Shown in pieces: positions 11,424-21,682 of a stretch of 37,468 nt of DNA. The stretch spans positions 1-37,468 of the forward strand of contig PBEP01000016.1 of NCBI GenBank assembly GCA_002719775.1, in the 5' to 3' direction. Position numbers and translations under genes: made by a program. This DNA comes from Chloroflexota bacterium (GTDB lineage: Bacteria; Chloroflexota; Dehalococcoidia; Lucifugimonadales; Australimonadaceae). Each line of letters starts with the position of its first letter. Positions within the stretch are counted from its first letter, which is position 1. The notes under the pieces were generated by a model, which saw only the letters and a program-made list of their open reading frames with translations, was not told the DNA's origin and searched no databases.

Positions 11424-13313
11424 CTAAACTAAATTTGTTTGCTCTAGCACTAATTCCACAAATCTTTCTGTGACCTTTCCGTCACAATGCGACAATTCTT
11501 GATCAATATACTTTTTTGCAGACGCTGTTTGCCTGTGAACAAATGACGGATCTTCGATAATTTTAATTACGGTGCTTAATAGTTCATCTGAACTTACTAC
11601 ACCCAAAGAAGCTCCAGCCCTAGCATAAGGGATTACGTCAGGCATACCTGTAAGATTTACAGTAACAACTGGCTTGCTTGCGACCATGGCCTCTATAGCT
11701 ACTGTAGAATAAGAAGTTATTAAAAAATCACATGCTTTAATTGCTTGTGTAATGTCAAAATTTGAAGGAAGTACTGTTACTTTTACACCCAATATGTGTG
11801 CTAGGTTTTTAATATAGGATGCCGGTTCAACAGGATGGGGCTTAACCATAATCTGTAAATCATCGATATTTTTAAGTGTATTTAAAATTACTTCAAAAAA
11901 AGCATCTTTATTCCCTGCAATTTTAAATGTCTGGGACGCAATTAAGGCACTTTTCTTATCAGGGTTAAGTTCAAAAGCTTCGAGGAAAGATGACTTTTCT
12001 TCATTCGTGAAGTTGTTCATTAATTGATCAAAGCGAGGCTGACCAATTTTTTTCAGACGCTCATTGTACGCATAGCCAATTTCATTAGTCATAACGCTGT
12101 AAGATTCGGGGCCAAATAAACAGGTTATTTGAGGGTAGAGGTTTAATCTGGAGGGACTAACATCAAAGTCACTTTTTATATGAGAATAGTCACAGAGGTA
12201 ATCATCTTCAGGAAGAATTGTTCCATGTTGAAGGCTAATAACAGGGATATTCAGGCGATTTGACTGTACTAAAATAGCCTTATTATCTAAGCTGGTATCA
12301 GATGCCATGACAACAATATCGGGTTTTGTTTTTCCCAGAATTTCTTTAGCCAGCAGTAAATATTCCGCCGCAGCATTACCATTTGTGAACCACAAATCTC
12401 TCAAAACATCTGAAATGATTTCCCAGAGCGGGACTCCCTGATAGTTCCATAAGTTTCTGAACTCGTAATTTTCTGATAAACGCAGCCATTCTTTTTTAAT
12501 GACTGATTTTTGCTTTTTGTAAGACGAATGTATTCGGCTATCTCTAAAAGAATCCCATGTTACGGCTTGCTTGGCCCTAAAAGTATTTGCAGGAACTCTT
12601 ACACGATTCCCATACGGGTATTTGTAAAGTTGTATTACGGTGCATTCTCTTGTAGCTAACTCGTTCATTACTGAAGATAAAATCAAATCTTCGGGTTCTT
12701 GTTTTTTTGTATGTTTATTTACAGAGACTTGTTCCCGAGCCATAGAAGTTACAAGTATCCGAGGAAACTTACTTTCAGAATATTCAAATTTAGGGGCAAA
12801 AACACTCCTAAGGATATTCCTGAATTTTAAGGCTGCTGGTCTCCAAAGAGCCTTTCGATTGTTTGTTTCCTTATAGGAAGTTTCTACTTGATTAAAGCAC
12901 AAATTTCTATACTCGCAGTACTTTTTTACGGTCTTATAAACAACTGAATTATCATTAACTATGCTTATTGATAATGGCTTTTCAGCGACGAATATAGCGT
13001 CAAGAACTGCAATGCATCTCGATATTTCTTTAAATATTTCACGGTAAAGCGAGCTTTCAAAAAACCACCAAAGCGTGCTGGCTTCAAATAATAGGCTTTG
13101 GTGTAAGCTTTTATCATTTAAGAAAGGCTCATGGCTAATTTTTTTGAGCCATTGCACTGCATTTAAATCAATCTGACGAAATCCTTTTGGTACGTAACTA
13201 CGTACATCTTTATCAGAATTTTCAGAGTTGTTCCATGAAATTCTAACTTCGGACCCCGAATACCCCAAAAGCCGAAAATCACCTGACTTGAGACCAATTA
13301 GTACACTACTCAC
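11424..13313 (-). CDS. Large GT-B glycosyl/glycerophosphotransferase-like protein (possible CMP-sugar user)
   Basis: A 629-residue protein. The first 300 residues are of unknown type. The C-terminal half has a GT-B pattern with LQHGT (361-365), GQPRFD (424-429), VKPHP (490-494) and TSYSTVAIEA (533-542). QHG, K-P-HP and S-x-S motifs occur in CDP-glycerol glycerophosphotransferase-like, UDP-GlcNAc-epimerase-like and polysialyltransferase-like proteins; in bacterial sialyltransferases the HP and S-S/T motifs contact CMP. Its position directly after the NeuB/NeuA-like genes and the methyltransferase makes it a candidate for transferring the product of that module, but this is inference. GTG start at 13313, overlapping the methyltransferase stop by 8 bp, with a GGAG nearby. 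No membrane segment or signal peptide. Confidence 0.65.
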   Translation of the reverse strand: MSSVLIGLKSGDFRLLGYSGSEVRISWNNSENSDKDVRSYVPKGFRQIDLNAVQWLKKISHEPFLNDKSLHQSLLFEASTLWWFFESSLYREIFKEISRCIAVLDAIFVAEKPLSISIVNDNSVVYKTVKKYCEYRNLCFNQVETSYKETNNRKALWRPAALKFRNILRSVFAPKFEYSESKFPRILVTSMAREQVSVNKHTKKQEPEDLILSSVMNELATRECTVIQLYKYPYGNRVRVPANTFRAKQAVTWDSFRDSRIHSSYKKQKSVIKKEWLRLSENYEFRNLWNYQGVPLWEIISDVLRDLWFTNGNAAAEYLLLAKEILGKTKPDIVVMASDTSLDNKAILVQSNRLNIPVISLQHGTILPEDDYLCDYSHIKSDFDVSPSRLNLYPQITCLFGPESYSVMTNEIGYAYNERLKKIGQPRFDQLMNNFTNEEKSSFLEAFELNPDKKSALIASQTFKIAGNKDAFFEVILNTLKNIDDLQIMVKPHPVEPASYIKNLAHILGVKVTVLPSNFDITQAIKACDFLITSYSTVAIEAMVASKPVVTVNLTGMPDVIPYARAGASLGVVSSDELLSTVIKIIEDPSFVHRQTASAKKYIDQELSHCDGKVTERFVELVLEQTNLV

Positions 13314-14109
13314 CTAAGGGTCTCCTCAAGAGAAAGATATTGTATGGTGCTAGAGCTAAAGGTGTCGATTTCTTAAGGACACGATCCAATGGAAAGCAGG
13401 TCATTAAAACTACCCTCGTAACTATTTTTCTCAGAGTAGATGGTTTTGCTCTTAAATTTCCGAATGCTCCTGACTTTTGTTTTGGTCTTACTGATCTTGC
13501 TAGGTTAGAAAGAATCGTTATAGCCCATTGTGGATAACTACTGGTTTTTATTAGTTCAAATCCAAAGTTGCCAAATTCCCTTAACCAGTCGTCATGGCCA
13601 CGTGGAATTGGTGATGTATTATCGTCAAAATTCTTTGCACCTCTAACCATTTCCAGAACCAACAAATACGAACCAGGTGAGGTAACTTCATAAATTTGCC
13701 CTAAAGTTTTCTTCAATTCAAAATCATCCAAATGTTGCATGACAGTTATCGACATAACAATGTCAAACATTTCTGGATTTTTGATGAAGAATGAATCGGA
13801 TGAAATTTCGAAAGTTATATTGTCTTTATTACCGTAAACCTGCTGGGCCTTCCCTATAACAACATCGCTTATATCTATTCCCGTAACTTTTGCTCCTAAT
13901 TTGGCTAGAGCAGAAGAAAAGTCACCAGTTCCACAGCCAAAGTCCAAAATTGAAAATCCATTTATCGGAAAAGGCAACGAATCTATTATCTTCAATATCG
14001 AATGAATTCTCGATGGCTGATCATAGTTATAAATGGATGAATTTCCCCAACCCGTATGTCCTTGGGAAAGTGCACGTTTATTCCAGTTTTTAGCTTTAGA
14101 ATTATCCAT
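13306..14109 (-). CDS. Class I SAM-dependent methyltransferase
   Basis: A 267-residue protein with the Rossmann-type SAM motif I ILDFGCGTGDFSSAL (about 51-65), an acidic end of strand 2 (VTGIDIS), and motif IV-like MFDIVMSITVMQHLDD. A basic C-terminal tail (SVRPKQKSGAFGNLRAKPS) and a final hydrophobic stretch could touch the membrane. GTG at 14112 precedes the ATG by one codon; I use the ATG at 14109. It overlaps both neighbours by a few bases. The position between the cytidylyltransferase-like gene and the large GT-B gene suggests O-methylation of the sugar product or capping of the glycan chain. Substrate unknown. Confidence 0.8.
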   Translation of the reverse strand: MDNSKAKNWNKRALSQGHTGWGNSSIYNYDQPSRIHSILKIIDSLPFPINGFSILDFGCGTGDFSSALAKLGAKVTGIDISDVVIGKAQQVYGNKDNITFEISSDSFFIKNPEMFDIVMSITVMQHLDDFELKKTLGQIYEVTSPGSYLLVLEMVRGAKNFDDNTSPIPRGHDDWLREFGNFGFELIKTSSYPQWAITILSNLARSVRPKQKSGAFGNLRAKPSTLRKIVTRVVLMTCFPLDRVLKKSTPLALAPYNIFLLRRPLGE

Positions 14110-14809
14110 CACCTGGCCGGGCCATATTTAAGTAAGATTCAGCAATTAACAAGCCGTCTGGATCTTGAGTATCGATTATGGCAGAAAAATCTTGAAGCGG
14201 AACGAGTCCTATCAGTTGCCCAAATCTACCTTCAGTTTTAAGTACATCTAACTTTGTGGCAATTCCTAGTCCTGCCATCTCTCTGTAAAGGGGCTGTGCT
14301 TTTTCCCTAGTGGTAGTTCCTTGAACCCCTACACGCGTTATTGCACCATATTCATCCGGTTTCCAATAGACATGTTTTTCCTGAAATGCGGCAAAAACAG
14401 TGTCCAAATCCTGTTCAATCAGTGAGTTAATTATTTGCTCTAATAATCCATTTGGCCTAAACGGATGAGCAATTTCTAGTGTAAGTACAAATTCAGGCAA
14501 AGAGACTTCTGGGTCAGCAATCTGTATTAAAGTATGCTGTAACACTCTATCTAGAGTCACACCTTTTTCACTCAAATCTTTTGGGCGCAAAAACGGGGCT
14601 TCTGCACCCATTTCAATGGCAAGTCTTTGAACTGACTCACTGTCAGTAGACACTATAACTCTTTGTGCTGATGAGCATGATAAAGCGGCATCAATGGTGT
14701 ATGAAATTAACGGTTTTTTACCCAACATTAAAGGGCCATGTTGATCCTCCGCATCCGTGCCACGAACGGGTATTACAACTAATACTTTTTCGTCTTTTGG
14801 GTCAGCCAT
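14102..14809 (-). CDS. NeuA-like cytidylyltransferase homologue with degenerate nucleotide-binding motif
   Basis: A 235-residue GT-A-like nucleotidyltransferase related to acylneuraminate cytidylyltransferases: VLVVIPVRG, LGKKPLISYTIDAAL, VIVSTDSE.., GAEAPFLRPKDLS and IIDTQDPDGLLIAE fit the family. The signature that binds CTP phosphate in NeuA (ARGGSKG..KN) is replaced by VRGTDAEDQHGPL, losing the Lys residues, and LQPTSPLR reads LEIAHPFR. It may use another nucleotide or acid, or be an inactive partner. I chose the ATG at 14809 because it overlaps the upstream TGA by 8 bp and has GGGGC 7 nt upstream; the longer frame to 14857 would add 16 residues with no family match. Confidence 0.75.
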   Translation of the reverse strand: MADPKDEKVLVVIPVRGTDAEDQHGPLMLGKKPLISYTIDAALSCSSAQRVIVSTDSESVQRLAIEMGAEAPFLRPKDLSEKGVTLDRVLQHTLIQIADPEVSLPEFVLTLEIAHPFRPNGLLEQIINSLIEQDLDTVFAAFQEKHVYWKPDEYGAITRVGVQGTTTREKAQPLYREMAGLGIATKLDVLKTEGRFGQLIGLVPLQDFSAIIDTQDPDGLLIAESYLNMARPGDG

Positions 14810-15557
14810 TATTTGCCCCATTAGAAGCGTCAAGGGCTGCATGCCCATGGTCATCATTTGGCATACGCCCCCATTCTTCTATTACTTTATTGGCAAGCCA
14901 CAAGTCAAACGGGTACTGGATATCGATGCTTGGAATGTAATCATCTTCTTCAATTATTTTAACTCTATCGCCGATCCTATTACCGGCTTTAATAACTGAT
15001 CCTCTTGTTGCACATGCCAAGCCAGTATCTTCTCTAAGGATCACTGATTTCGATTGCCGAGGGCCATAACCCCTCCAGCTGAGGTGAGAGTATTTACCTG
15101 ATTTAACATGCCAGAAATTTTTGTACGTTGCATATGCAACAAAACAAGACTCGAGATCTTTGTCGTCGATTAATGAGTTCACACACTCAGACAACCATCG
15201 CTGTCGTCGAAAAATATCGGTGGGTTGTAAAAATACCAGAATATCAGTCCTATATCCTTCATTCTCTTCCAACCAATCAACCGCGTGTTTTAATGCAGAC
15301 TCAGTAGTTGCATGATCTACAGCAAATTCAGTGGGTCTAATAAATGGCACTTCTGCACCGAGCTTTAACCCTACTTCCGCTATTTCTTCGTCATCAGTGG
15401 AGAGAATAGTTCTGTCGATTAAGGGACAATTAATAGAAGCCTCGATTGACCATGCGATCAATGGTTTCCCGCCAACTATTTGGATATTTTTTCTCGGGAT
15501 ACCTTTGGAACCTCCACGGGCAGGTATAACTGCAATTACATTGTTTCCCTCAGGCAT
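14802..15557 (-). CDS. NeuA-like CMP-ulosonic acid synthetase (cytidylyltransferase)
   Basis: A 251-residue homologue of CMP-sialic acid / CMP-pseudaminic / CMP-legionaminic acid synthetases. The intact signature IPARGGSKGIPRKNI (11-25) binds CTP. GKPLIAWSIEAS, TDDEEIAEVG, GAEVPFIRPTEFA, LVFLQPTD and the metal-binding IDIQ..FDLWLA follow in order. Motif changes from textbook NeuA are LQPTDIFR for LQPTSPLR. The family couples CTP with a 2-keto-3-deoxy sugar acid. AGGAG lies 8 nt before the ATG. It sits between a GT2 gene (TAAATG junction) and a second, degenerate NeuA homologue. It is the best evidence that a CMP-activated keto-acid is made here. Confidence 0.85.
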   Translation of the reverse strand: MPEGNNVIAVIPARGGSKGIPRKNIQIVGGKPLIAWSIEASINCPLIDRTILSTDDEEIAEVGLKLGAEVPFIRPTEFAVDHATTESALKHAVDWLEENEGYRTDILVFLQPTDIFRRQRWLSECVNSLIDDKDLESCFVAYATYKNFWHVKSGKYSHLSWRGYGPRQSKSVILREDTGLACATRGSVIKAGNRIGDRVKIIEEDDYIPSIDIQYPFDLWLANKVIEEWGRMPNDDHGHAALDASNGANNG

Positions 15558-16229
15558 TTATGTACTCCTGTTTCCAATCCACTCAATTACTTTAGCAACT
15601 CTTGCTGAACGTTCTTCATTGCGTCCATGGTGAATACCGTGCCAGTGAAATACACTTGCAGATGGCTCATAGGCAACCTTATAACCCTTTGCTTGGACCT
15701 TACGAGCCCAATCGCGATCTTCCACGCCAGATATTTCTTCATCAAATGGAATTTGACTCCAAATTTCCTTCTTGATCATTGAATTAGCATTGTGAAAGAA
15801 AAAATCTTGTGCTTGTACCTTGGGTTCTGTCCCAAAAGTTGTCCAAAGATCACGTTTATCATAGGAACTAGTATCAGGAAGCGGTTCCTGTCTACCATAG
15901 GTTCCGGCAATCTTGGGGTCTCCAAATCCAGATAACAAACCGACCAACCATTGGTCATCAGAAGGAATGCAGTGACCAGAAGTAATTGCAACAAAGTCTG
16001 ACTTTGCTGCATAAATTCCCCAATTTAATGATCGCCCAAACGTAAAATCTTTGTCAGAAATGGTTATAAGTGTGCAATCAAAGTCCGAAACTATATCCAA
16101 AGTCCGGTCACTGGACTCATTATCTACAATTACGACATCAAGATTCTTGTAACTTTGAGCAAAGACTGCTGACAGGCAACGACCTATCCAACGCTCTTCA
16201 TTTTTTGTCCTAATAACTACCGAAATCAA
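15558..16229 (-). CDS. Glycosyltransferase family 2
   Basis: A 223-residue GT-A inverting glycosyltransferase with MISVVIRTKNEERWIGRCL, VDNESSDRT, GRSLNWGI and SGHCIPSDDQWL; the last replaces the usual DxD, as in a GT2 subfamily with an SxH-x-x-P motif. GVEDRDWARKV gives the catalytic-base ED pair. TTG start at 16229, 2 bp after the NeuB-like gene. Short for a GT2, with no C-terminal membrane helix. Placed between the NeuB and NeuA homologues, it may add the sugar next to, or the sugar made by, that module. Donor unknown. Confidence 0.85.
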   Translation of the reverse strand: MISVVIRTKNEERWIGRCLSAVFAQSYKNLDVVIVDNESSDRTLDIVSDFDCTLITISDKDFTFGRSLNWGIYAAKSDFVAITSGHCIPSDDQWLVGLLSGFGDPKIAGTYGRQEPLPDTSSYDKRDLWTTFGTEPKVQAQDFFFHNANSMIKKEIWSQIPFDEEISGVEDRDWARKVQAKGYKVAYEPSASVFHWHGIHHGRNEERSARVAKVIEWIGNRST

Positions 16230-16231
16230 TA

Positions 16232-17233
16232 CTAATCTCCCAGCATTCCAAACGTTAAAGGCTCACCCGCCAAAGTGTCGTAGGCAAGGGGCTTACCAAC
16301 AATTTTGTCTATCTTGGACGGGCTAATTCCTTTGTCAGTCAATTTAACCGTAAGCATATCCTGGTCCAATATTTCTCCTGCCATAAGATCGCGTACTGGA
16401 ACCAATGCAACTCTTCCTGATCCTGCAGCAACTACCTCAAAGCTCATTGGAACCCTTGGGCCATTAAAATTTAGTGAATCAAAAATATCATCCAAGTGAA
16501 TTCGAAGTGATCTTATCTCGTCTCTATCCAAGCTTTTAGCATGCCCTAGGCCTGGTAATCTATGGTCTGTAGTAAATGGTTTCTGAATGCATCTTGCGCC
16601 TAAAGTATAAGCTGCAATAGCTGACTCAATTCCTGGGTCAGTTCCATAATACCCGACAGGTATATCAAATCGCTGTGACAAGTATGAAATAATTCCTATT
16701 GCGCTTTTCTGGACACTGATTGTTTCAGTATTAACAGAGTGCAACAAAGTCAAATTTTTACTATCCACAAGATTTAGCGCATATTGAATTTCATCATCAG
16801 TGCACCTAGATGCTACTAGGAAAATATGCTTCCCAGTTTTTGCCGCGGCACTTAGCAATTCATTATGAGTGAGTAGTCCGTGTTCAATTTGGATGAAATC
16901 AGCATCCAAATCACACAATTCTCCAAGTGAAACAAGGTCGTATGGAGCACCAATGAAAGAAATGTTTAAAGAAGAACACAGCTGACGCAAATCGCCCAGA
17001 GCCTTGATATCAATCTCAATTTCACTATACATCTCTGAGCGAGTAACGCCTAAATATGGCTTTTTTAAGTACTCTTGTGTGAATGCTTCATTTTTTGACC
17101 ACCTTCGTACTGAAATGGCATCCATGCCAGCGCTTCCAGCTAAAGAAATCAAATCTTTGGCTAAACCAGAATCCCCGCCATGGTTATCCTCAAGTGCGCC
17201 GATCAGATAAGGTTTTTCCCAGTTATTTTTCAT
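16232..17233 (-). CDS. Divergent NeuB-family (sialic acid synthase-like) protein with SAF domain
   Basis: A 333-residue protein that aligns along NeuB: an N-terminal TIM barrel (LIGALEDNHGGDSGLAKDL) and a C-terminal SAF/antifreeze-like domain (about 263-333; VPVRDLMAGEIL..., GISPSKIDKIVGKPL). NeuB condenses PEP with ManNAc or similar amino sugars using Mn. Here the usual GYSDHT is GYYGTD (194-199) and IEKHFT is IQKPFT (216-221), so both metal-binding His are gone. VKFQ reads SVRR (41-44, with K and Q replaced) and the STGM segment reads ASRC. NH in the first loop and the downstream GLGHAKSL remain. It is therefore either a condensing enzyme with altered chemistry or non-catalytic. The SAF domain usually closes the partner active site of the dimer, and its retention argues for function. 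Confidence 0.78.
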   Translation of the reverse strand: MKNNWEKPYLIGALEDNHGGDSGLAKDLISLAGSAGMDAISVRRWSKNEAFTQEYLKKPYLGVTRSEMYSEIEIDIKALGDLRQLCSSLNISFIGAPYDLVSLGELCDLDADFIQIEHGLLTHNELLSAAAKTGKHIFLVASRCTDDEIQYALNLVDSKNLTLLHSVNTETISVQKSAIGIISYLSQRFDIPVGYYGTDPGIESAIAAYTLGARCIQKPFTTDHRLPGLGHAKSLDRDEIRSLRIHLDDIFDSLNFNGPRVPMSFEVVAAGSGRVALVPVRDLMAGEILDQDMLTVKLTDKGISPSKIDKIVGKPLAYDTLAGEPLTFGMLGD

Positions 17234-17239
17234 CAGCGC

Positions 17240-18364
17240 TCACCATACTTTGAGCATTGCATCGAAAACTTTCGCATAAACAGCTTTTGTGTCATATTTT
17301 CTTTGTTCAAAGTAAGATGCTAAAACCCTAGGAACAAATGCTTCAACCGCCTGAATAATGTTCATACCTTTACCATTCAGCACCTTATGTCCACTTAACC
17401 TTGCTTGTCGCAAAAATGCTGTCTCTAAGGGGCTATAAATTAAATCAAAATATGCTGCTCGAGCTCCATTTTTACGTACAGTACCAAGTGCAGCAACGTG
17501 GTTTTCTGAAATACCTGGGCGGGCAGACCAAAACCATTTATCATAGAAATCACCTTCTACAATATCCCCTTGGATTTCGATTCCTATTTCTCGAACTTCT
17601 GCGAGTGGGTTGTATGGTTCCAAGGATGTTAGGCTTCCGTCACTTATTTTCCTAATACCTGATTGACCAATAACAGAAGCGTTAATTATCAAGTCAATAT
17701 CACCAATAATGTCATTGATTTGATTTATTTCTATGAAATCTGATTCTGGGTGGATTTCTGAAATTGCAGCTACTAAATCTTTACCCTTTTCTATGGATCT
17801 ATTGGAGATCCATAGTCGACCTAGATTTTTCTGGGAAGCTAAAATAAAAGCAGTAGCCCTAGCCGCACCACCTGCTCCCAAAATCAAAACGTTAAATCCA
17901 TCAAGGCCATCTAAAAAAGGCGCTGAATTCCAAGGTAGCTTTTGAACCATTGAAGCCAATGCTCCTTCGGCATCGGTGTTATACCCAATTAATCTACCTT
18001 CGTTATCTTTTACAATTGTATTAACCGCACCTATTCTAGATGCCAAGGGGTCCAACTCATCCAAATAGTCCATCACCGAAACTTTATAAGGGACAGTAAC
18101 GTTACCTCCGATATAACTAGCCGTGCCCTTAAGTGCGCCCACTAAAGACTCTAAGTTTTCTACCTTTACGTCAAAGGGGAGGTATTTTGCATTGATACCC
18201 AGTTCCTTAAAGGCTGAGGTCCAAATTATTGGACTCTTAGCGTATTTAGACGGCTGGTCACCAATAATTCCACAAATAAAATCTAGCTCATCCAGACCTT
18301 GCTCGAACTGGTTACTAATACATTCTTGTATTAAATGAGTGCTCTTAGATTCCATTGAAGCCAT
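17240..18364 (-). CDS. Shikimate dehydrogenase-like (AroE family) oxidoreductase with insertion
   Basis: A 374-residue AroE homologue, about 90 residues longer than usual. Substrate-domain residues are mostly kept: NVTVPYK with catalytic Lys94, GAVNT (Asn115), GYNTD (Asp131) and GKGMNIIQA (Gln338). NADP-fold GAGGAARA spans 163-170. The pair of carboxylate-binding serines (HS-x-SP) reads YAKSP, so the first Ser is Ala42. An insert of roughly 50-60 residues (about 245-300) lies before FDLIYSPLETAFL, and there is an N-terminal extension of about 25. The start ATG overlaps the upstream TAA by 1 bp (TAATG). No aroB, aroD or aroA is nearby. Alternatively it could be the cell's only AroE; the extensions and context make a specialised role more likely. 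Confidence 0.82.
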   Translation of the reverse strand: MASMESKSTHLIQECISNQFEQGLDELDFICGIIGDQPSKYAKSPIIWTSAFKELGINAKYLPFDVKVENLESLVGALKGTASYIGGNVTVPYKVSVMDYLDELDPLASRIGAVNTIVKDNEGRLIGYNTDAEGALASMVQKLPWNSAPFLDGLDGFNVLILGAGGAARATAFILASQKNLGRLWISNRSIEKGKDLVAAISEIHPESDFIEINQINDIIGDIDLIINASVIGQSGIRKISDGSLTSLEPYNPLAEVREIGIEIQGDIVEGDFYDKWFWSARPGISENHVAALGTVRKNGARAAYFDLIYSPLETAFLRQARLSGHKVLNGKGMNIIQAVEAFVPRVLASYFEQRKYDTKAVYAKVFDAMLKVW

Positions 18365-19233
18365 TACATCTCTATTTCCATTACTGAAGCAATGTTTCTT
18401 AATTGTTTCATTAAATTATCGAAATCTTCAAAGCCTAGTGCTTGTAATGGATCAACAGCTGCCTGCTCTGGCACTGGATGTACATCCAGGATAATCCCAT
18501 CTGCACCAATAGCTAATGCTGCTCTAGCTACTGGTGCAACGTAAGCACGCTTAAAAGTCGCATGGCTGGGGTCGACAATTACGGGAAGGTGAGTCCATTC
18601 CTTAGCTGCCAGTACGGCTTCCAAGTCGACAATGAATCTTGAGGTAAGTTGATGTGTATGAGGAACTGTGATGCCTCTTTCACACAAAACAACGTTTGGA
18701 TTACCGTGGTACAAGATATATTCGGCAGCGCCCAACCAATCTCTCAATCCACAACCAAAGTGACGTTTTAATAAAACTGGAATTCCGCTTTTACCAAGCT
18801 CCTCGAGAAGAGGAAAGTTTTGCATATTCCTCGCTCCCACTTGCATCATGTCAGTGTACTGTGCAACCAATTCTATATCCCGTACGTCCAGAATCTCTGT
18901 AACTACAGGGAGTCCAGTTTTCTGTTTTGACTCAGCAAGGTACTTCAATCCTTCTTCTTCTAATTGGAACATTTTGTCATTGCGGTAAGGAAAAGTAAGG
19001 GGTTTAAAAGCCCCACCTCTAATCATGGAAGCTCCAGCTTCCTTTACTGAAGTGCCTGTTTCAAGCATCATTTCCCGACCTTCAATCGTGCAAGGTCCTG
19101 CAATAACTACAAATTTTCCTTCTGACAATTCAACGTCCCCAACATTGACAGTAGTGCTGATTTGATCGGGCTTTCTACCCACCAAAGGAATATTTGACTG
19201 AATATCTGCTTCTGTTACGTCTTTACTAGTCAT
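18364..19233 (-). CDS. DAHP synthase-like PEP aldolase with altered acceptor site
   Basis: A 289-residue protein of the AroF/KdsA-type DAHP synthase family: AGPCTIEG (Cys48 metal ligand), RGGAFKP, VVTEILD, QVGARNMQNF, LLKR, NPNVVLCERGI, DPSHAT (His224) and DVHP..EQA..D (Asp250, Asp261). PEP-binding motifs are intact. Acceptor motifs are not: KPRTS is KPLTF (77-81), KRG-x-S-x-T is KRHFGCG (156-162), RTFE is TVPH, and TRNTLD is TSRFIVD (197-203). The metal-ligand Glu of EVHP is Asp250. The family joins PEP to erythrose 4-phosphate; the changes predict another aldehyde. No ACT regulatory or chorismate mutase domain. It sits 1 bp from the AroE homologue and near NeuB/NeuA homologues, not with aromatic amino acid genes. 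Confidence 0.83.
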   Translation of the reverse strand: MTSKDVTEADIQSNIPLVGRKPDQISTTVNVGDVELSEGKFVVIAGPCTIEGREMMLETGTSVKEAGASMIRGGAFKPLTFPYRNDKMFQLEEEGLKYLAESKQKTGLPVVTEILDVRDIELVAQYTDMMQVGARNMQNFPLLEELGKSGIPVLLKRHFGCGLRDWLGAAEYILYHGNPNVVLCERGITVPHTHQLTSRFIVDLEAVLAAKEWTHLPVIVDPSHATFKRAYVAPVARAALAIGADGIILDVHPVPEQAAVDPLQALGFEDFDNLMKQLRNIASVMEIEM

Positions 19234-19238
19234 CTAAG

Positions 19239-20315
19239 TTAATCCGTTATTGGCGTCTGGTATAAGGACTCTTTTTCTTCATCTGTCCAGTTCATTTCTA
19301 TTGTCTTCCCTTCTAAAGCAGAGGCATAAATAGCCTCAATGATCTTAGCAAGTACTACTCCACTGCTTAATGAATCTGCACTTGTTCTTTTTCTATCCTT
19401 AACACAAGCTAGAAAGTGGTTAAGTTCAGAAGAGATCATTTGAACAGGATCAGCAGTTTTGTTGAGCGGAACTTCACTATCACCAAAGATAGGTTTCCAT
19501 GTATTGTCTATAAATTCCTGATGAACTCCATGGACTTTCATTTGGTCTATTTCAAAATCAAGTTCTACAGTTGCTTGTGAGCCACAAACAAAAATCTCCT
19601 TGGAAGTAAAAGCGTCAGGCACTACCTTGTCTCGCCACTTACCAGGTTGGATATAACCTGATTCTATCTTTGCAACTGTACCATCAGGGTATTGCAGCAT
19701 CACAACTGAAAAATCTTCTAATCCTCTTGAGAAATGATCCCTGGTGATTGCGAAAATTTTGTCTGGAACAGAACTCAAAAGCCAATTAAACAAATCAATG
19801 AAATGTATACCATCCGTATGGGTGACACCCACGTCGGTTCTGGCTCTTTTAAATCCCATGAAATTACCAGAAAGGTAGCGAATCTCTCCTAAGTTTCCAT
19901 TTTTAATCAGCGATCTTAATCTTGTAGCACCAGGGTGAAACCTATAGTAGTAGCCTACTTGAAGTATTTTCCCAGATTCTTGAAGAATTTTGGTAAGTTG
20001 AATCGCCTCATCTGAAGTCATGGTCATAGGTTTTTCTACGAAAACATCCTTACCTTTTGATATAGCCATTTCACATAACTCAAAATGATTGTGGGAGGGA
20101 GTGACTATATCTACTACGTCTACTAGGTCGATAAAATCATTAATGTCTGTAGCAATACGTTCTTTAGGGAAATTAAAATTTTTTGTTTCTGCATGGAGTA
20201 TAGGGTTTAAATCAGCTAGGTATAAATAATCACCCATACCCATCTGGTGCCATGCTTTGAGATGGTTTCTACCAAAGCCTCCTAAACCTACCTGGAGTAT
20301 TTTTGGAAGGCTCAT
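19239..20315 (-). CDS. Gfo/Idh/MocA-family sugar oxidoreductase
   Basis: A 358-residue NAD(P)-dependent oxidoreductase. The Rossmann motif GLGGFGRNH (10-18) and the family hallmark EKP (94-96, in VFVEKPMTM) are clear, followed by LQVGYYYRFHPG and THTDGIHFIDLFNWL in the C-terminal alpha/beta domain. Members oxidise or reduce hydroxyls of sugars, inositols or UDP-sugars. Its ATG overlaps the UDP-glucose-dehydrogenase-like stop by 4 bp, so it may act on the UDP-uronic acid, as the UDP-GlcNAcA 3-dehydrogenases WbpB/WlbA do. It also lies 5 bp before the DAHP-synthase-like gene and may feed that pathway instead. Substrate uncertain. Confidence 0.85.
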   Translation of the reverse strand: MSLPKILQVGLGGFGRNHLKAWHQMGMGDYLYLADLNPILHAETKNFNFPKERIATDINDFIDLVDVVDIVTPSHNHFELCEMAISKGKDVFVEKPMTMTSDEAIQLTKILQESGKILQVGYYYRFHPGATRLRSLIKNGNLGEIRYLSGNFMGFKRARTDVGVTHTDGIHFIDLFNWLLSSVPDKIFAITRDHFSRGLEDFSVVMLQYPDGTVAKIESGYIQPGKWRDKVVPDAFTSKEIFVCGSQATVELDFEIDQMKVHGVHQEFIDNTWKPIFGDSEVPLNKTADPVQMISSELNHFLACVKDRKRTSADSLSSGVVLAKIIEAIYASALEGKTIEMNWTDEEKESLYQTPITD

Positions 20316-21682
20316 AAACTTCCCTCATGTTTCTCTAAAATTGGATATCCCACTCCTGAATAACGAAACCCTAGTTGGTTCATCAATCTTGGGTCAAGAA
20401 GGTTACGCCCATCAACCATACATTTTTGTTTCATCACTCTTCCTATAGCTTCCCAGTCCAAATCAGAATATTGAGGCCAGTCAGTTAAAACCATCACTAA
20501 GTCTGCCCCAGAAGCAGCATCCGATTCATTCTCGTAGTATCTAAGATGTGGGATTATTTGTCGTGCATTTTCAATAGCAATAGGGTCATGTGCTGATAAA
20601 TCTGCACCCAGATCTAGCAGTTGCTGAATGATTCGAATTGATAGTGATGTCCGCACGTCATTGGTGCCTGGTTTGAAGGCCAAACCTAAAATTGCTATAG
20701 ATTTTCCTGCGATGGATCCATCAAGAGATTGAGCAACCCGAGCAACCATTTGTTGAATTTGGAAGTCATTTCTGTCTATTACTGCTCTCATGAAGCTTGG
20801 CTGGTAGCCTCGTTGAGCAGAAAAATGGATCAAGCCTCGTATATCTTTTTCAAGACATGGTCCACCAAACCCGATGCCAGGTTGAAAGTAATCCCATCCA
20901 ATTCTTTTGTCATACCCAAGGCCTTTTACCACTTCCTTGACATCTGCATCGACAATTTCGCAAATTCCTGCTATCTCATTGATGAAAGAGATCCTCGTAG
21001 CCAAATATGCGTTGGATGCATACTTAATCATCTGTGCAGCAGGAATCGAAGTTTCTATATAAGGTACTTCATGTGCTATATCTAGAATATTGTTGCCCTT
21101 TGATTCAACATCAATGAAGTCTGAATATAGAGTCCGCATAACCTCTCTTGCCTTTTCCGAATCAGTTCCAACCACAATTCGGTTAGGGAACATAAAATCT
21201 GCCAAACCCTGTCCTTCTCTCAAAAATTCAGGGTTCGCAACCACATCTGCGTGCAATCCCTGAGAGCTATGCTCTTCAATAATTTGATTGACCATTTCGA
21301 TTGTTCCAGCTGGAACTGTAGATTTAATAGCTATTACCGAGTATTGGTCTAAAGCTTCCGCTAGCAACCTAGCAGCTACTTTGACTTGTGACATATCAGT
21401 TCCGCCATCAAATAAGGATGGGCTACCAACAGCAACAAAAACAACCTCGGCGCCTTTTGCAGCGCTTTCAATATCGGTTGTGAAAGTTAGATTTCCCTCA
21501 CGTAAAGAATGACTTAAAGCTTCATCTAATCCATCTTCATGAACTGGACTTATGCCTTTAGAAAGGCTCAGCACCTTGGATTCATCAATATCAACTGCAT
21601 AGACCTGATGTCCCATCAGTGCGAACCCAACACTGGTAATGAGTCCAACATAACCACAACCACCGACGACTGCCAGTTTCAT
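20312..21682 (-). CDS. UDP-glucose 6-dehydrogenase family protein
   Basis: A 456-residue nucleotide-sugar dehydrogenase. It has the N-terminal VGGCGYVGL NAD motif, AVGSPS, STVPAGT, NPEFLREG (150-157, typical of UDP-glucose dehydrogenases) and catalytic Cys276 in GIGFGGPCLEKD. The usual GGSCFPKD is modified at three positions, and SIPAAQMIKYASNAYLA is the central helix. It should oxidise UDP-glucose or a relative to the UDP-uronic acid in the cytosol. A good RBS (AGGAG 8 nt before the ATG) and a TATAAT upstream suggest that this gene starts a transcript reading towards the left end of the window. The relaxed Cys motif leaves room for a different UDP-sugar. Confidence 0.88.
   Translation of the reverse strand: MKLAVVGGCGYVGLITSVGFALMGHQVYAVDIDESKVLSLSKGISPVHEDGLDEALSHSLREGNLTFTTDIESAAKGAEVVFVAVGSPSLFDGGTDMSQVKVAARLLAEALDQYSVIAIKSTVPAGTIEMVNQIIEEHSSQGLHADVVANPEFLREGQGLADFMFPNRIVVGTDSEKAREVMRTLYSDFIDVESKGNNILDIAHEVPYIETSIPAAQMIKYASNAYLATRISFINEIAGICEIVDADVKEVVKGLGYDKRIGWDYFQPGIGFGGPCLEKDIRGLIHFSAQRGYQPSFMRAVIDRNDFQIQQMVARVAQSLDGSIAGKSIAILGLAFKPGTNDVRTSLSIRIIQQLLDLGADLSAHDPIAIENARQIIPHLRYYENESDAASGADLVMVLTDWPQYSDLDWEAIGRVMKQKCMVDGRNLLDPRLMNQLGFRYSGVGYPILEKHEGSL

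Follow-up and report, generated by a model that had tools for sequence, protein, structure and literature searches.

Why should a surface-glycan locus carry two homologues of shikimate-pathway enzymes directly beside genes of the nonulosonate type? The question is raised by a 37,468-nt stretch of DNA, here called the window, which is contig PBEP01000016.1 of assembly GCA_002719775.1, from a Chloroflexota bacterium of the Australimonadaceae. Six packed genes occupy positions 14102-19233 of its minus strand. In ascending coordinates, open reading frame (ORF) calls give the order NeuA2, NeuA1, GT2 (a glycosyltransferase), and homologues of NeuB, AroE and 3-deoxy-D-arabino-heptulosonate 7-phosphate synthase (DAHPS), with consecutive genes overlapping or at most 6 nt apart. 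An initial annotation, made from the sequence alone, had described this run and its families, and the ORF calls together with Pfam and NCBIfam profiles, by which the window proteins were assigned, agree with it. That gene list was incomplete, as it missed a core member: a Gfo/Idh/MocA oxidoreductase (Gfo), encoded 5 nt upstream of the DAHPS gene and conserved together with the module. Here, we designate the module paralogues DAHPS′, AroE′ and NeuB′. We argue that the operon probably encodes a dedicated pathway whose product is a cytidine monophosphate (CMP)-activated 3-deoxy-2-ulosonic acid for the surface glycan, with shikimate paralogues taking over the role of NeuB and tailoring roles.

A gene set that recurs across phyla

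The first lead came from viral contigs. A DAHPS alignment searched against them returned marine contigs in which a DAHPS-like gene adjoins a GT2 homologue and NeuA, and in which the canonical KPRTS motif is likewise missing (KPCT[YF]P). The pattern R[GA]GA[FY]KPxT[FY]P was then run on the viral contigs and subsequently on one genome per species (84,980 species), in preference to a general DAHPS alignment, for which ordinary DAHPS would fill the result. It matched 15 sequences in the viral contigs and 79 in the species genomes, a sample made up of sequences that fit the pattern; relatives with other residues at the KPRTS site lie outside it.

The window sequence KPLTFPY is shared by 64 of the 79, designated subfamily A. 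Slices of at most 8 kb around these 64 genes, which miss neighbours and in which GC-rich loci were called by simple ORFs, contain AroE′ in 51 cases, NeuA1 and NeuA2 in 44 each, GT2 in 40 and Gfo in 39. AroE′ follows DAHPS′ with a median gap of 71 nt, and 50 of the 51 loci have the two genes on one strand. The median gap between Gfo and DAHPS′ is 395 nt (39 of 64 loci). These neighbours are independent evidence, because only the DAHPS motif was selected. Half of the carriers (32/64) are SAR11 or Prochlorococcus (25 Pelagibacteraceae and 7 Prochlorococcus), and others belong to the Thalassobaculaceae, other Rhodospirillales, Acidobacteriota, Omnitrophota, SAR324 and more. The Gfo-DAHPS′-AroE′-GT2-NeuA core recurs over at least six phyla. 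Named carriers include Thalassobaculum litoreum DSM 18839 (L229), Nisaea nitritireducens DSM 19540 (L256), Roseibium sp. MMSF_3544 (L260) and Prochlorococcus MIT 9302 (L246). The closest match to the window is an Acidobacteria locus (L237), with 54% identity for Gfo, 62% for DAHPS′, 42% for AroE′, 29% for NeuB′ and 58% for GT2, followed by two Omnitrophota loci (L261 and L268) and one of the Vicinamibacterales (L216). The window Gfo shares 50-54% identity with its syntenic counterparts in L261 and L237, and GT2 is 44-59% identical across syntenic loci.

Individual loci show variations on this arrangement. In Pelagibacter HTCC9565 (L313, 10600-12414 and 16440-19568) and in L327, a carbamoyltransferase gene stands between DAHPS′ and AroE′, and a block encoding a 2-hydroxyacid dehydrogenase, NagB-like and KdsB-like proteins and an HpcH/HpaI aldolase adjoins the module and looks like a second ulosonate route. 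An arginase-family gene directly follows AroE′ in a Rhodospirillaceae locus (L322:11042-11977). Three loci (L265 from Azospirillum halopraeferens, L280 and L220) have a KPLTFPY DAHPS′ with no recognized module neighbour in the slice, reflecting either a split module or a slice that is too short.

Altered active sites in two separate clades

The initial annotation had also stated that several of the enzymes have changed active-site residues, which holds for DAHPS′, AroE′, NeuB′ and NeuA2. The window DAHPS′ scores 313 bits against TIGR01361, over the curated cut-off of 267.75, and retains the metal Cys and His, the KPxT Lys and Thr and, in the phosphoenolpyruvate (PEP) site, the Lys-Arg of LLKR and the CERG Arg. 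Two motifs differ. KPRTSPY is replaced by KPLTFPY (KPLTFPYR in the window), which lacks the Arg responsible for binding the phosphate group of erythrose 4-phosphate (E4P), and CERGIRTFE is replaced by CERGITVPHTH, in which three residues are added. Among the 79 pattern-selected sequences, the Lys and Thr of KPxT are retained in all, and the PEP-site Lys-Arg, the CERG Arg and the His wherever covered. The metal Cys is replaced by Asn in 59 of them (L245 is of this type), a change that marks metal-independent KDO8P synthase (PMC6650799).

AroE′ scores 176.5 bits against TIGR00507, under the equivalog cut-off of 200.2. Its catalytic Lys and Asp (K94 and D131, corresponding to Lys65 and Asp102 in E. 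coli numbering) are kept, as they are in 49 of 49 module copies, while HSxSP has become YAKSP, which turns the first Ser (Ser14) into Ala. The two Ser of this SxS motif bind the carboxylate of shikimate in AroE. Of 49 module AroE′, 48 have Ala in place of Ser14, a replacement that none of the 37 housekeeping or control AroE shows. The AF2 model of AroE′ (pLDDT 94) has the shikimate dehydrogenase (SDH) 1nvt as its best Foldseek match, and also matches 5-ketofructose reductase (7col), a known AroE-family reductase of a sugar ketone (PMC7954740).

In trees built by FastTree with local support, both enzymes form clades of their own; a comparison with housekeeping enzymes had been suggested in the initial annotation. 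The DAHPS′ clade (64 members), which includes the window protein, has a support of 0.994, and the AroE′ clade, with a support of 1.0, stands apart from every housekeeping AroE compared. Within the latter, the window protein groups with that of one genome (G151; 0.77) and then with relatives from its own family (0.92). Together, these data support DAHPS′ and AroE′ being dedicated, co-inherited and altered paralogues.

Dedicated copies or ordinary shikimate enzymes?

It may be asked whether DAHPS′ and AroE′ are simply the plain DAHPS and AroE of this genome, brought into a glycan locus by chance. The genome (1.28 Mb, 75.6% complete) has a single PF00793 and a single PF08501 match, both in the window, as is its only PF03102 match. 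The retained PEP site and catalytic Lys/Asp fit this explanation, as does the finding that in 12 of 15 family relatives the only AroE found belongs to the same clade; it is about 40% identical to the window AroE′, carries the same insert and lies outside glycan loci. Against it, each of the 15 relatives has a PF00793 enzyme of another kind, undetected by the window protein, and none has the window type, and therefore the window DAHPS looks accessory. The housekeeping DAHPS of this genome is probably encoded in the missing part of the assembly. A type II DAHPS was considered for this role and rejected, as none occurs in the 15 relatives, where the different PF00793 enzyme is found instead.

In other genomes, moreover, both proteins come in addition to housekeeping copies. 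Prochlorococcus MIT 9302 has a housekeeping AroE and a housekeeping DAHPS distinct from those of the module (its second DAHPS is long and scores 304 bits), and a second, better-scoring AroE is usual in module-bearing genomes. In SAR11, the second PF00793 match is short and may be KdsA, and the redundancy of DAHPS is thus claimed from MIT 9302 and not from SAR11. The initial annotation had held that its reading would fall if the two enzymes were the only copies in the genome and fully active on E4P and dehydroshikimate. The answer comes from other genomes: one copy of each is found in this incomplete genome, and extra copies are present in MIT 9302. The repeated adjacency to GT2 and NeuA across phyla also speaks against ordinary enzymes, as does position 14, which is Ala in the AroE′ of the window and of G151 and Ser in eight other aligned AroE′ of the family. 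On balance, we regard chance placement of ordinary enzymes as unlikely.

The AroE of the family relatives (L005-L016, L034-L045) keeps the 65-residue insert and has Ser at position 14 (YSRSP). It may be a module enzyme that turned into a housekeeping SDH, or the reverse. It was initially taken as evidence of a housekeeping role and then dropped as such, since the tree places the window protein and these relatives together inside the module clade.

Several points weigh against a dedicated pathway. DAHPS′ and AroE′ are the sole copies found in this genome, and the relatives' only AroE, located outside glycan loci, falls in the AroE′ clade, part of which may do ordinary SDH work. AroE′ is missing from 13 of the 64 slices, only part of which are truncated by the end of the slice. 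The DAHPS′ set was in effect chosen for lacking the KPRTS Arg, and how often this residue is lost in it (65 of 79 sequences have Leu and 5 have Arg) is not independent evidence. Finally, the residue roles in DAHPS′, AroE′ and NeuB′ are assigned from family knowledge.

An ulosonic acid or a carbocycle?

If DAHPS′ and AroE′ are dedicated enzymes, their shikimate-pathway folds could still point to a carbocyclic acid (quinate-, shikimate- or cyclitol-carboxylate-like), for which the DAHPS′ product would be cyclized by housekeeping AroB, reduced by AroE′ and activated by a NeuA-type enzyme. The position of the module inside glycan loci is compatible with this route, and this genome does encode AroK-AroB and AroC, on another contig (G000:C15). 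Within the window there is no aroB, aroD or aroA, as had been noted at the outset, and the conserved core of the module loci includes no recurrent homologue of AroB or AroD. In addition, DAHPS′ lacks the Arg that holds the E4P phosphate, and the hydroxyl to which NeuA-family enzymes attach CMP is an anomeric one, a group that carbocycles do not have. Because the core has no cyclase and the CMP-transferase needs an anomeric hydroxyl, a carbocyclic product is the less likely of the two, and we consider it improbable. The initial annotation had left both options standing: its dedicated, altered paralogues and its keto-acid from PEP and an unusual aldehyde are favoured here, and its carbocyclic acid is not.

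A probable NeuB pseudo-enzyme and two unequal NeuA proteins

NeuB′ consists of a NeuB barrel followed by a SAF domain (PF03102, PF08666). Compared with intact NeuBs, it has lost both metal-binding His, the catalytic Glu and both active-site Lys: SDH(T) reads YGTD, EKHFT reads QKPFT, AE reads GA, VKFQ reads ISVR and YKIAS reads IQIEH. Judged from these substitutions, NeuB′ cannot act as a metal-dependent NeuB, and it is probably a pseudo-enzyme that serves as a binding or scaffold subunit. Degenerate homologues occur in L237, L252, L257 and L268, and NeuB′ is restricted to a deep sub-branch. Searches of the order with NeuB′ found only intact NeuBs, at no more than 31% identity, making it a poor marker. 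A sialic-acid-like C9 sugar formed by NeuB′, for which DAHPS′ would act as regulatory partner, is very unlikely despite the conserved barrel and SAF homology and the intact NeuB genes near some modules, given the lost metal His and Glu/Lys residues, the reduction of NeuB′ to a SAF fragment in L261 and its fusion to GT2 in L268 (Omnitrophota), and the presence of NeuB in only 9 of 64 subfamily-A slices, several of these being intact NeuBs at some distance. On this point, the initial annotation is corrected.

Because NeuB′ is incapable of metal-dependent NeuB activity and most modules lack it, DAHPS′ is probably the PEP-condensing enzyme that replaces NeuB. A fusion observed in many modules leads to the same view. 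GT2 and NeuA2 are joined in 25 of 47 loci, and in one relative (L078) the GT2::NeuA2 protein comes after an intact NeuB, which argues that DAHPS′ occupies the slot of NeuB.

The two NeuA homologues named in the initial annotation are not equivalent. In NeuA1, the nucleotide-binding loop (GSKxxxxKN) is intact, IPARGGSKGIPRKN, and is kept in most relatives, whereas NeuA2 lacks it, as do 27 of 27 NeuA2-type matches. Both proteins score under the PseF equivalog cut-off of 205.7 bits (NeuA1 122.7 bits, NeuA2 59.9 bits). The AF2 model of NeuA2 (pLDDT 87) nevertheless has the fold of CMP-Pse/CMP-Neu synthetases, with the CMP-Pse synthetase 9ftc as its best Foldseek match.

A proposed route and its known counterparts

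In the proposed ulosonate pathway, DAHPS′ would condense PEP with an aldehyde other than E4P, probably one that carries no phosphate at that position, yielding a 3-deoxy-ulosonate. Gfo and AroE′ may then form an oxidoreductase pair that oxidizes and re-reduces a ring position, resulting in epimerization or keto reduction; the pyranose form of an ulosonic acid (a six-membered ring with a carboxylate) resembles shikimate. NeuA1 would join the acid to CMP, and GT2, a putative ulosonyltransferase, would transfer the sugar, with NeuA2 as a predicted non-catalytic donor-binding or partner domain.

This route has much in common with the nonulosonate pathways for sialic, pseudaminic and legionaminic acid (NeuB/PseI/LegI with NeuA/PseF), which likewise combine a PEP-condensing TIM-barrel enzyme, a NeuA/PseF-family CMP-transferase and a glycosyltransferase in a surface-glycan locus. 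The module differs in that its predicted PEP-condensing enzyme is a DAHPS paralogue, its core includes an AroE-family dehydrogenase and a Gfo/Idh/MocA enzyme, its NeuB is a probable pseudo-enzyme or absent, and its NeuA2 has no nucleotide-binding loop. The Kdo pathway (KdsA, KdsB) also uses a DAHPS relative, KdsA, and CMP activation before transfer, and the Cys-to-Asn change of metal-independent KdsA is the one seen in 59 of the 79 sequences. However, DAHPS′ is a type I-beta DAHPS without the KANRSS of KdsA, and AroE′ and Gfo have no counterpart there. The shikimate enzymes AroF (type I-beta) and AroE share folds and most catalytic residues with the module copies (44-53% identity for DAHPS), which in contrast lack the E4P phosphate Arg and the carboxylate Ser14, form separate clades, are linked to glycan genes and occur in addition to housekeeping copies. 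5-Ketofructose reductase applies the AroE fold to a sugar ketone, but shares about 24% identity with AroE′ in the structural alignment and acts on free 5-ketofructose; we know of no glycan locus for it. As the initial annotation had suspected, no described pathway with this gene set was found in open-licence papers, although absence there is weak evidence.

The surrounding glycan locus

The module is embedded in a surface-glycan locus (Table 1) that also encodes a sugar transferase, an acetyltransferase, two DegT aminotransferases, a GDP-mannose-dehydratase-like protein, two nucleotide-sugar dehydrogenases, an O-antigen-ligase-like protein and a heparinase-like lyase. The UDP-glucose/GDP-mannose dehydrogenase family gene at the head of the run is found in few related loci. 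Beyond the six genes, the methyltransferase and large GT-B protein reported earlier are confirmed.

Table 1. Genes of the module and its immediate neighbours in the window.
Feature	Coordinates	Strand	Evidence
UDP-glucose/GDP-mannose dehydrogenase family enzyme, at head of run; outside the core, with a general surface-glycan role	20312..21682	-	PF03721/PF00984/PF03720
Gfo (Gfo/Idh/MocA oxidoreductase), core module member	19239..20315	-	PF01408/PF22725
DAHPS′, type I-beta DAHP-synthase paralogue	18364..19233	-	TIGR01361 313 bits; motif alignments
AroE′, shikimate-dehydrogenase paralogue, 374 aa with ~65-aa insert	17240..18364	-	TIGR00507 176 bits
NeuB′, NeuB/SAF homologue	16232..17233	-	PF03102 116 bits + SAF (PF08666)
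GT2 glycosyltransferase, putative ulosonyltransferase	15558..16229	-	PF00535, 73 bits
NeuA1, CMP-ulosonate synthetase-like	14802..15557	-	PF02348 (CTP_transf_3) 75 bits, TIGR03584 123 bits
NeuA2, NeuA-fold protein	14102..14809 (probable start 14809; ORF open from 14857)	-	PF02348 (CTP_transf_3) 36 bits
Methyltransferase, overlaps module end; not core	13306-14112	-	Pfam, ORF overlap
GT-B/CDP-glycerol-transferase-like protein, after methyltransferase; not core	11424-13313	-	Pfam, ORF overlap

A second recruitment in phage contigs

The KPCT[YF]P enzymes of marine phage contigs (subfamily B) form a separate clade with a support of 0.993, and adjoin GT2 in 14 of 14 loci of the viral collection, whereas none of its 21 loci with a canonical DAHPS has GT2 beside it. 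Subfamily B represents an independent second recruitment of DAHPS to glycan genes. In the phage contigs, a D-2-hydroxyacid dehydrogenase gene, identified by Pfam in L112, is located upstream of the NeuA and DAHPS genes, and an enzyme of this type is also encoded beside the module in SAR11 HTCC9565. Scanning the viral contigs with the window DAHPS′ and AroE′ as single proteins gave no match, and neither did an AroE′ alignment.

Two phage contigs (L126:9920-11519 and L112:5657-10780) encode a KDO8P-synthase-like protein (KANRT) along with the subfamily-B enzyme, the two genes being adjacent in L126. Other viral contigs (L127, L137, L141, L144-L164 and L168-L174) carry DAHPS-like families, many near-identical, in which xAGTYP or YGTYP replaces KPRTS. 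GT2 is nearby in only 1 of 28 of these loci, and these enzymes therefore do something else.

Implications for marine surface glycans

Extended beyond the window, the argument is that CMP-activated 3-deoxy-ulosonic acids made via DAHPS and AroE paralogues are a widespread but undescribed sugar on the surfaces of marine bacteria, SAR11 and Prochlorococcus among them, and that phage contigs carry an independently evolved PEP-condensing step; we give this broader claim an even chance. If it holds, a gene set that is likely annotated as aromatic-amino-acid synthesis would produce an undescribed acidic sugar borne by cells that are among the most abundant in the ocean. It would explain the purpose of a recurrent part of surface-glycan loci, with a bearing on phage-host recognition, and would mean that a central metabolic enzyme became a sugar-acid synthase twice, via the change of one phosphate-binding motif. 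As culturable carriers exist, the product is open to direct search.

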